From contig NC_092670.1 of the NCBI RefSeq assembly GCF_964355755.1, positions 35,823,795 through 35,887,794 on the forward strand: a stretch of 64,000 nt of DNA. Reading direction: 5' to 3'. Position 1 is the first letter of the stretch. The number at the start of each line of letters is the position of its first letter. Shown piece after piece: positions 6,101 to 37,508 of the stretch. Both the position numbers and the translations under genes were made by a program. Origin of the DNA: Antedon mediterranea (Eukaryota > Echinodermata > Crinoidea > Comatulida > Antedonidae). The notes under the pieces are model-generated. The model was not told the origin of the DNA. It saw nothing but the letters and a program-made list of their open reading frames with translations, and searched no databases.

Positions 6101-7033
6101 GAGAGGCAATCTCGTCACAAGATTCAAATCTTTAAGGGATTTCCTTTTGTCTATTTTCTTTTATTATCACCATTTTGTTTTTGTTACTATTTGTCTTCTG
6201 GACGTGAATAATTGTTCTTTGAGTTGAATTGAACTACAGTTTTAAAAAATCAAGCTAAGATACATAATTTGATAAAATACTGATCTATAGTTTACAACAT
6301 AGTAGTGTTGAACGCATTTTTTAATTGGCTAGCAACCACGCGGCGACATTTATCGTTGTCACGTCACACCGCAGACAGAGCTTTAGAGCAACGCAAGTGA
6401 TCTGACCAATCAAAAGCGATAGATTATTCGAACTGTAGCTTGTCATTTGTCAACTCGATAGGCCGACATATAGGCCTACAAATAAGTGAACATGAATAAT
6501 TAAATTCTAACCTGGCATGGCAGACCTGCTACCTGCTGAACAAATGCGTATGTTTTTCGTTTTTCGGCAAGTTCTATTCTCCGCTGATCTGAAAATTTGG
6601 CGAATTGCGGTAGCTGACAATCGTATCGTTCAAACATCATTTTGAACCCTAACGACATCCAACGATTTATTGGAAATACGTACGTCATATTGTTGTAATT
6701 GTCTTCCACCTTTATCCATTCACAGTACCAGCTATCAGCTACTAAACCGGAGCGCCATAATTCCAGATCATTAATGTGTCCAAAATTATTGAGATCCTTA
6801 ACTGGAAATATGTCGGTACTACCTGCATCAAAGTTGTTTTTCCATGTACAATCCAAATGGATTTCGTCTGACTGGCGGCCTTTGTCATTGATGAGCTTGG
6901 CGTAGAGGTTCGCATGTGTTAACAATCCTTTATGATCGCCTGTTTTTGCGATAATGCTGTATCTGGTCTTGATACCGTCGGTATGGTCAACTATAGGCGT
7001 CTCTCCATTACATGATGAAGAAACGCAACCCAT
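108..7033 (-). CDS. LOX-A: PLAT-domain lipoxygenase, exons 1-7 (3' part outside window)
   Basis: Predicted iron dioxygenase that peroxidises polyunsaturated fatty acids. Exons read on the minus strand: 6512-7033 (PLAT domain), 5922-5966, 5632-5757, 5353-5450, 3544-3673, 3036-3131 and 108-322, all bounded by GT/AG and in phase. The ATG at 7033 lies one base after an AG, so the 5'UTR is probably in a separate exon. The product starts MGCVSSSC, a Met-Gly-Cys pattern suited to myristoylation plus palmitoylation. Exon 4 has the LOX-conserved stretch [17 protein letters not shown]. Exon 7 contains HQSSAH followed by LGMTH, giving iron ligands His365 and His370 of the visible protein. Exon 5 is 6 nt shorter than in the other copies. 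The exons with the third His and the C-terminal Ile lie left of base 1. Intron 4 holds a miniature LTR element and intron 6 a TTAA-flanked transposon. The family call is secure; substrate and regiospecificity are not readable. Confidence 0.9.
485..2948. mobile_element. TTAA-flanked non-autonomous DNA transposon, copy 1 (Kolobok-like)
   Basis: A 2464-bp unit starts AGATGTATTGTCCCCC and ends with the inverse, GGGGGACAATACATCT. It is flanked by TTAA on both sides (481-484 and 2949-2952). A weaker inverted similarity runs further in (GTTATTCACTT, then GAGCTAACTCAT). A second, nearly identical copy interrupts LOX-D intron 5. There is no long ORF, so it is non-autonomous. TTAA target duplications occur in piggyBac and Kolobok elements; an AG-starting end resembles Kolobok/T2 termini more than the CCC start of piggyBac, so Kolobok-like is an inference. 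It lies within LOX-A intron 6, whose exons remain intact. Confidence 0.8.
3384..3450. repeat. MITE-2 family, truncated copy
   Basis: The stretch holds CTTAAGCTTGGTTCCCACTA followed by GGACTAGGAATGCGTGACGC. This is the left arm of the palindromic MITE seen in full at 16093-16262 and 62878-63035. Only one arm is recognisable. It lies in LOX-A intron 5. Confidence 0.55.
3733..3760. repeat. (TA)n microsatellite at the 5' side of the LTR element
   Basis: A pure TA run ends exactly where the LTR element begins. The TA run continues at 4704 after the element, so the element inserted into a TA microsatellite. Confidence 0.9.
3761..4049 (+). repeat. 5' LTR
   Basis: This 289-bp LTR is identical by eye to 4415-4703. 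It contains two nearby copies of TGCCCCCTATA and ends CATCCTTACA. Confidence 0.92.
4053..4070 (+). promoter_or_regulatory. Primer binding site, probably tRNA-Leu type
   Basis: TGGTGTCAGAAGTGGGAT begins three bases after the 5' LTR. It starts with TGG, the complement of a tRNA CCA end, and reads like the complement of a tRNA-Leu 3' end. The tRNA identity is recalled, not computed. Confidence 0.65.
4108..4431 (+). CDS. Truncated gag-like ORF of the miniature LTR element
   Basis: An open frame starts at the ATG at 4108 and runs 108 codons including the stop, ending inside the 3' LTR. The N-terminal half ([14 protein letters not shown]) looks like a helical segment. The stretch [18 protein letters not shown] resembles the start of Gypsy-type gag proteins. 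The rest is acidic, and its last residues are encoded by LTR bases, so the frame end is accidental. It is probably a fusion of the gag start with the last bases before the polypurine tract, left by internal deletion. No catalytic domain is present. Confidence 0.5.
   Translation: MASKASLRDVQRTVDELRAELEATRRAAHGNGNTVYVLPEKKMRHFGRAEGECVESFVEDDGTGDVYPDWPDDAGIDSENAEKILLVVNNIKFEDKLSLNRGVWGLI
4415..4703 (+). repeat. 3' LTR
   Basis: This 289-bp LTR is identical to the 5' LTR. It is preceded by a purine-rich tract and followed directly by TATATA of the target microsatellite. Confidence 0.92.
4704..4947. repeat. Two long (TA)n tracts separated by an 86-bp single-copy stretch
   Basis: TA runs occupy 4704-4767 and about 4854-4947. 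The intervening bases hold a hammerhead-like motif (separate entry). Open frames here on either strand encode only Ile-Tyr repeats and are not genes. Confidence 0.9.
4811..4852 (-). ncRNA. Hammerhead-ribozyme-like motif (Penelope-like/retrozyme relic)
   Basis: On the minus strand the core reads CTGATGA (4846-4840), then GGGC-TAT-GCCC as a possible stem II, then GAAAC (4827-4823), a short loop and GTT. These are the conserved hammerhead blocks in the right order, with a two-base-pair stem III as reported for Penelope-like elements. The closing pair of stem II would be a U/C mismatch, so activity is doubtful. The AT-rich sequence after it (AATAAATC) suits the end of a retroelement. Confidence 0.45.
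5030..5330 (+). pseudogene. LINE ORF2 C-terminal remnant
   Basis: One frame gives [15 protein letters not shown], a stop, then [20 protein letters not shown]. The pattern Leu-Arg-Trp-x-x-His-hydrophobic-x-Arg followed by a basic tract and a Trp is the usual C-terminal end of many non-LTR reverse transcriptases. It has a stop codon and no RT domain. It lies in LOX-A intron 4 between the TA tracts and exon 4. Confidence 0.55.
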
Positions 7034-7205
7034 GCTAAAGATTAAGCTAGTTATAATTAGGCCAATATGTATTTAACCACGCGTACACTCCACAAGGTTT
7101 GATTAACAATGTTTCAATTATACATTTCAATTTTTGTTTTCGTTTTGATGTAACATTATTTTAAGATCATTAGCTATTATTAGTATTATTTAAAAAAGAA
7201 AAAAA

Positions 7206-37200: not shown

Positions 37201-37508
37201 TATTCCTTTTTGCATCCCTTTACTTTTATCCATTCTACATACCACTTATCAGCGCTACGCTTTGTCCGCCATAACTCAAGCTCAGCAATGTCTCCAAAGT
37301 CGGCGAGATCTTTGACGGGAAATTTATTAGTACTACCTGCTTTAAAGTCGTTGTGCCATTTGAGGTCCAGATGTATTTCTTGAGATCGTTTTCCAGCTGC
37401 ATTCACAAGAAGGACGTAGATGTTTGCATCCGTACCCGCCCCCTGATGATCTCCAGTTTTCACTATTACTGTATATTTGCAAAGAAACTTTGAAATGAGA
37501 CTTCCCAT
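31281..37508 (-). CDS. LOX-C: complete PLAT-domain lipoxygenase, 665 aa
   Basis: Eleven coding exons on the minus strand: 37032-37508, 36858-36902, 36090-36215, 35586-35683, 35011-35146, 34531-34626, 33995-34209, 33605-33864, 32168-32433, 31889-32052 and 31281-31395. They join in phase to 1998 nt including the stop, a normal animal LOX length. The PLAT domain spans about residues 12-125 (VKTGDHQGAGTDANIY). The iron ligands are His352 and His357 (HQSASH), His544 and Asn548 (HAAVNFGQYD) and C-terminal Ile665 (PNAISI). The N-terminus MGSLISK fits the N-myristoylation consensus. The enzyme should add O2 to arachidonate-type fatty acids; whether it is 5-, 8- or 11/12-specific, R or S, is not deducible by eye. 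Echinoderms are known for 8R- and 11R/12R-LOX activities. The ATG is one base after TTTCAG. Confidence 0.95.
31610..31770. repeat. MITE-1 copy
   Basis: The left arm TCTCTGTCTACACAATCAAA and right arm TAAAGACAGAGCTTA surround two ATGGTAGTGATxTG units. It lies in LOX-C intron 10. Confidence 0.8.
33139..33459 (-). mobile_element. S1 SINE, tRNA-headed, copy 1
   Basis: The minus strand begins with GTGGCCGAGCGGTTAAGACA (box A of a Ser/Leu-type tRNA head) and GGTTCGAGGC (box B). A body of about 230 bp follows, ending GTATAAAGATAAAACAAAAA. It is very similar to 38518-38835. It sits in LOX-C intron 8. The adjacent CACTCACTC repeat at the head end is probably flanking slippage. Confidence 0.85.
36628..36773. 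repeat. MITE-2 copy in LOX-C intron 2
   Basis: The ends GAAGCTTGGTTTCCACGCA and GTGGAAATTAAACTTTA are imperfect inverted repeats. LOX-D intron 2 carries the same family at the matching position with similar flanks (CATGCCTACAC downstream), so the insertion predates the C/D duplication. Confidence 0.7.

Follow-up and report, generated by a model that had tools for sequence, protein, structure and literature searches.

The window analysed here is a 64,000-nucleotide stretch of the genome of the crinoid Antedon mediterranea (contig NC_092670.1, positions 35,823,795 to 35,887,794; G000:C1:35823795-35887794), within an assembly of 354 Mb in 18 contigs. It contains a minus-strand tandem array of PLAT-domain lipoxygenase (LOX) genes, here named LOX-A, LOX-B, LOX-C and LOX-D. 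These are animal lipoxygenases of the ordinary type, with a PLAT domain and a catalytic domain, and they have a predicted signal for N-myristoyltransferase (NMT) at their start. The recognition pattern of NMT in eukaryotes is Met-Gly-small-x-x-Ser. We propose, with a probability of about 0.78, that these PLAT lipoxygenases open with an NMT recognition signal, one that purifying selection would have maintained at each of the LOX loci detected here.

An earlier note on this DNA had read an N-myristoylation signal into the three LOX starts visible in the window. All three are present on the minus strand, MGCVSSSC starting at 7033, MGATTSMF at 20693 and MGSLISKF at 37508, and every residue that the note relied on is in the sequence: Gly2 and Ser6 in A, B and C, Lys7 in C, and Cys3 together with Cys8 in A. 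LOX-D, which starts beyond the right edge and was proposed there as a check, reads MGSIVSKF and has the same motif. Among positions 2-8 of A, B and C alone, 2 and 6 are the only invariant ones; given two invariant positions in that range, the chance of their being 2 and 6 is 1/21. Against random Met-Gly peptides, a profile over positions 3-8 gives P values of 0.028 (A), 0.17 (B) and 0.13 (C), although this profile is rough, having been built from 33 octamers of which 26 have Ser6, so that Ser6 dominates the score. Taken from the window only, the evidence for the signal is modest.

We therefore rely on the remaining LOX genes of the same genome. A lipoxygenase-family search gave 26 exon matches, at least 12 of which correspond to the exon that encodes the first two iron-binding histidines; all 44 first-look candidates were scored, and counts for large families are lower bounds. 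Nine of the resulting 12 loci form one minus-strand array (C1:35.80-35.92 Mb) and three are dispersed (C1:7.68 Mb, C1:32.09 Mb and C8:17.46 Mb). They are called Z, A, B, C, D, E, F, G, H, d7, d32 and c8, and none was dropped. A search with the LOX-C start exon returned 20 matches, comprising the 12 LOX start exons, the second PLAT exons of the split copies d7 and H, five matches on C7 and one at C1:22554798 (22.55 Mb). The start exons pair with the 12 iron-histidine loci by order and strand, a pairing backed by spliced models for A-D and by position for the other eight. The five C7 matches fall in a row of PLAT repeats and were not counted as LOX; the 22.55-Mb match, a distant PLAT copy, was taken to be from another protein family and was likewise left out of the count. 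The C7 row itself (G000:C7:17750000-17776000) consists of about 12 PLAT-like segments, in some of which stops interrupt the aligned frame, an arrangement as in LOXHD1-like proteins.

All 12 LOX loci found begin M-G-[C/A/S/N/G]-x-x-S (11 of 11 without the broken B), including the dispersed d7 (MGNRGSKQ), d32 (MGNSSSNT) and c8 (MGGKESKQ). Ser6 is thus present in 12/12, and residue 3 is always small. Other positions vary: Lys or Arg occupies position 7 in half of the loci (C, D, E, H, d7 and c8), Cys3 is found in four (Z, A, F and G) and not in the other eight, and a Cys occurs among the first 12 residues in seven (the same four plus C, H and c8). Over positions 3-7 the profile gives P values of 0.0007-0.051 for the 12 against random Met-Gly peptides. 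As a base rate, passages of PMC4200515 put the gene products that begin Met-Gly at about 7% and the part of the human proteome predicted to be myristoylated at 0.8%.

The note's suggestion that the motif is under selection appears to be borne out by these loci, since Gly2, Ser6 and a small residue 3 are kept in 12/12 and the neighbouring residues diverge. Positions 3, 4, 5, 7, 8 and 9 hold 5, 10, 8, 6, 8 and 10 kinds of residue, against one each at 2 and 6, and in the PLAT domain invariance is limited to 12 of 92 ungapped columns. The Gly2 codons are GGT, GGA and GGG and those of Ser6 are TCA and TCG, with AGC in H; this variation is synonymous, so that the residues have been kept through changes of codon. 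We simulated sites under LG, a simple model, on a LOX tree built from the PLAT core and the iron exon (length 4.47, with several weak inner nodes). At the average rate, the probability of an all-Gly column given Gly is 0.10 and that of an all-Ser column given Ser is 0.0019. At three times that rate the value for Gly is 0.0012 and no all-Ser column was seen, nor was one at twice the rate; the columns simulated at the threefold rate hold 6.1 residues, still below the mean of 7.8 for the real neighbours. In an alignment of 11 start exons (B omitted owing to its stop), M1, G2 and S6 are invariant, and the next invariant residue, Tyr12 in LOX-C numbering, belongs to the first PLAT strand. This strand starts anywhere from residue 11 to 25, and Ser6 is therefore fixed relative to the N terminus and not to the PLAT domain. 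A signal recognised by an enzyme at the N terminus would be expected to keep such a fixed distance from Met.

Table 1. LOX features of the window, numbered from its first base
Feature	Position	Strand	Description
LOX-A gene	108..7033	-	Seven joined exons form an open frame in the window; remainder past the left edge
LOX-A start exon	6512..7033	-	Signal, linker up to Tyr25, PLAT domain; PF01477 E = 9.7e-17
LOX-A signal	7010..7033	-	MGCVSSSC; G2, C3, S6, C8
AG one base before the LOX-A ATG	7035..7054	-	Weak acceptor; 40% of window AG score equal or higher
LOX-B gene	14207..20693	-	11 exons, one nonsense codon
LOX-B start exon	20211..20693	-	Signal and PLAT, interrupted by an in-frame stop; PLAT match only after the stop
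LOX-B in-frame TAG	20460..20462	-	Codon 78
LOX-B signal	20670..20693	-	MGATTSMF; G2, S6; second Met at position 7
Acceptor-like pyrimidine-AG one base before the LOX-B ATG	20695..20714	-	Top 1% of 6333 AG
LOX-C gene	31281..37508	-	11 exons, 665 aa, C terminus AISI
LOX-C start exon	37032..37508	-	Signal and PLAT domain; PF01477 E = 2e-22
LOX-C signal	37485..37508	-	MGSLISKF; G2, S6, K7; then Cys10
Acceptor-like pyrimidine-AG one base before the LOX-C ATG	37510..37529	-	Top 4% of 6333 AG
LOX-D gene	49890..64000	-	11 exons, exon 1 truncated by the window edge
LOX-D start exon	63631..64000	-	Cut by the edge; start MGSIVSKF at G000:C1:35887901, 107 bases past the edge

The GT-AG intron models are clean for the whole of LOX-C, for the part of LOX-D inside the window and for the seven LOX-A exons; the C-terminal exon of LOX-A lies outside the window. 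LOX-B has the same 11 exons as LOX-C, and ten of them, with their splice sites, are undamaged. The single stop of LOX-B may mark a recent pseudogene, be polymorphic or stem from a mistake in the assembly. Pairwise identity among the start exons of A, B and C is 39-54%, and B and C have diverged to about 1.0 at synonymous (dS) and 0.22 at nonsynonymous (dN) sites. Matches to PF01477 are above the curated cut-off in A, in C, in the D fragment (E = 1e-14) and in the part of B after the stop (E = 2.5e-5), with no PF01477 match in the part of B before it; the domain was also found in 9/9 other start exons scanned, the complete D included. The N-terminal PLAT domain of animal PLAT lipoxygenases is accordingly present. 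The iron ligands (His-x4-His, His, Asn and the C-terminal Ile) are all present in the LOX-C model and in its alignment to coral 11R-LOX, and iron-ligand residues also occur in the LOX-B and LOX-D exons; in the dispersed loci the later exons were read in part for catalytic residues. At d32 (G000:C1:32087156-32087368) the iron-histidine exon reads TYC-FIYF instead of H-x4-H, and this copy, which retains its start, is probably catalytically inactive as predicted from that exon.

The PLAT loops differ among the copies. In E, F, G, H, d7, d32 and c8 the coral loop motif NDFE retains its acid behind Phe, a residue that we take to be a calcium ligand of 5-LOX and coral LOX; B and C have Lys there, D has Gln, Z has Tyr and A has Asp. 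Loop 1 keeps its AGTD residues in C and D. Calcium binding may be weakened in part of the array where the predicted N-terminal signal is not. The predicted structure of the LOX-C start exon has a mean predicted local distance difference test score (pLDDT) of 45, too poor for a fold search; in it, residues 1-11 are unstructured and the first strand begins at 12.

Several other elements lie among these genes. Between exons 7 and 8 of LOX-D is a broken, partial second copy of its iron-histidine exon (51668-51742, DASYHQSASHR*MTTHL...). Retrotransposon open reading frames (ORFs) are found at 27149-30577 (+), with endonuclease and reverse transcriptase, and at 61640-62440 (-), with a reverse transcriptase fragment. 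A 323-bp repeat, possibly a short interspersed element (SINE), occurs at 38514-38836 and 33140-33460 with 96% identity and has older relatives at 12558-12674 and 10370-10411. Just upstream of LOX-A, a 185-base unit is present in two identical tandem copies (7205-7575). A 138-nt block with 77% identity is found upstream of both LOX-B (25570-25710) and LOX-C (39203-39345); matches between the ten introns of B and C are no longer than 20 bases. We considered this block as a promoter or 5' exon and dropped it, with no match in the stretches examined around D and the other copies.

A myristoylation signal requires that Gly2 follows the initiator Met, and it would be void if the start exon were joined to an upstream coding exon and Gly2 never became N-terminal. 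The earlier note had named an upstream in-frame start as an observation that would speak against it. None was found: in all 12 loci, the interval from the closest in-frame stop upstream to the start Met is free of other in-frame Met codons. In H and d7 this interval also contains no AG to which an upstream exon could be joined, which makes these two true starts if splicing is canonical. Each of the other ten has an AG that ends 0-2 bases ahead of the ATG, and the sites in B and C rank in the top 1% and 4% of window AG by an acceptor model with 31 training sites, paralogous sites among them. An in-frame ATG in the block shared by B and C could even be joined to the start exon if a GT there served as donor. 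However, the donors required in B and C score lower than all 37 known donors of these genes, and the block is unmatched in the stretches examined around other copies. A comparison of the upstream regions of A, B and C gave no convincing conserved peptide: weak matches in the shared block are interrupted by stops, and the stronger ones sit at the outer limits of these regions, next to the 3' ends of the adjoining genes, or within repeats. No Pfam domain was found in 10 larger upstream ORFs, a chosen subset. M1 is invariant, moreover, and its neighbours are not. An upstream coding exon is unlikely in those ten loci, and for the 12 as a whole we give an internal Met-Gly little chance. The AG before the ATG is likely the end of an intron in the 5' untranslated region just ahead of the start codon, but an AG at this place also suits the start context.

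Granted that Met-Gly is N-terminal, Met-Gly-x-x-x-Ser could be kept for another cause, such as N-terminal processing or acetylation, a Gly N-degron or phosphorylation of Ser6, with no myristoylation in the animal. Passages of PMC7373427 and PMC4200515 describe Met-Gly as required and not sufficient, with some confident predictions of myristoylation failing in cells. Some of the copies also hold residues that the octamers of the profile lack at the same position, for example Met7 in B. Nevertheless, it is the combination of Gly2, Ser6 and a small residue 3 that is invariant in 12/12, and this combination is the preference of NMT; to our knowledge, none of the other processes demands it. We consider such a cause unlikely. 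Shared ancestry and chance offer another account, in which an ancestral Met-Gly-xxx-Ser start is too young to have changed. The tree does contain close pairs (C-D, Z-A and F-G), conservation of Gly is by itself not rare at the average rate, and the preference of the start context for a G directly behind ATG favours Gly, along with a few other residues, at position 2. Against this stand the synonymous divergence between B and C, the scrambled residues beside the motif, the low probability of an all-Ser column at the average rate and its absence from the faster simulations, and the switch of Ser codon class in H. Ancestry with chance is hence very improbable.

For an NMT signal under purifying selection, the following points have to be set on the other side of the balance. 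The 12 loci are paralogues of one genome and not independent, and the conclusion rests on the genomic sequence of that one genome. The profile is rough and dominated by Ser6, and over positions 3-8 LOX-B and LOX-C reach only the P values of 0.17 and 0.13. The AG found 0-2 bases before the ATG in 10/12 makes an upstream coding exon conceivable there. Met-Gly alone is no proof of myristoylation and predictors err, according to passages of PMC7373427 and PMC4200515.

If the signal is used, methionine aminopeptidase would remove Met1 and NMT would then attach myristate to Gly2 during translation, as expected from its general action, and the lipid would carry the enzyme to a membrane. The copies with Cys3 (Z, A, F and G) could receive a second, S-linked acyl chain, putatively by palmitoylation, and those with Lys or Arg at 7 (C, D, E, H, d7 and c8) could add charge contacts. 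The linker, which ends with the first PLAT strand at residue 11-25, would seat the PLAT domain and the active site on the same membrane. With such a tether, a pool of enzyme would reside permanently at the membrane, and the PLAT loops would add a second contact tuned by calcium. We infer acylation, the membrane site and the effect on activity from the N-terminal pattern. The earlier note had seen in lipid-anchored LOXs a distinct mode of action, apart from the calcium-dependent PLAT domain. The PLAT domain is retained here, so that the anchor would add to PLAT and not replace it.

Should the proposal be correct, the first six residues would encode membrane residence as the default state, uncoupled from calcium control, and these enzymes would be tethered from birth instead of only upon a rise in calcium. 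It would also account for the variation of Cys and Lys next to an invariant Gly and Ser across a tandem LOX array, and it would bear on how membrane residence shapes the access of LOX to substrate, including the oxidation of membrane phospholipids. A more far-reaching version is that a family of at least 12 loci is constitutively tethered by N-myristate, in part with palmitate, that in Z, A, B, C and D, where the loop Glu is lost or changed, the anchor replaces the calcium-dependent PLAT contact, and that the Cys3 and Lys7 variants sort the paralogues to different membranes. We regard this version as tentative and somewhat doubtful; if true, gene duplication would have diversified where oxylipins are made, and not only which ones.

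Among solved structures, the best match of LOX-C is coral 11R-LOX (3vf1; E = 5.4e-106), nearly full length and with PLAT and catalytic domains. The 8R-LOX part of the coral allene oxide synthase (AOS)-LOX fusion (2fnq, 3dy5) also matches LOX-C over nearly its full length (2fnq, E = 1.4e-100). The likeness extends to the His/His/His/Asn set and the C-terminal Ile, which we take to have iron-binding roles and which LOX-C keeps. The N termini differ. In 11R-LOX the Met (chain position 20) directly precedes the first strand, MKYKITV, and the 19 residues ahead of it are probably a tag; in 3dy5, 8R-LOX is fused behind the AOS domain. Human 5-LOX (3o8y) shares the PLAT and catalytic domains, but its first strand comes after Met-Pro-Ser (MPSYTV, chain position 21, probably with a tag before it). 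Human ALOX12 and ALOX15 also start with Met-Gly (MGRYRIRV and MGLYRIRV); these starts fail a PS00008-like pattern and have profile P values above 0.9. The MGC-x-x-S-like starts of Z, A, F and G resemble, in their first residues only, Fyn/Lck-type kinases and G-alpha-i, which are dual-acylated Met-Gly-Cys proteins.

Two reviews name a calcium-responsive PLAT domain, surface aromatics and a helper such as FLAP as the determinants of LOX membrane binding (PMC10889196, PMC7436259), and for 5-LOX the first of them names calcium, aromatic residues and, with substrate, FLAP. Our literature searches found no myristoylated or palmitoylated LOX, the broader ones being judged by titles and the first lines of abstracts of the top papers, so that an unlisted case may exist; for echinoderm and other invertebrate LOX genes, the search listings had nothing about N termini. 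PMC12905584 names ALOX12 as acetylated and FSP1 as myristoylated. FSP1 is a close parallel in kind, a lipid-redox enzyme that is described there as anchored to the plasma membrane through an N-terminal myristate; it differs in being a quinone reductase that suppresses lipid peroxidation, the opposite of lipoxygenase action.

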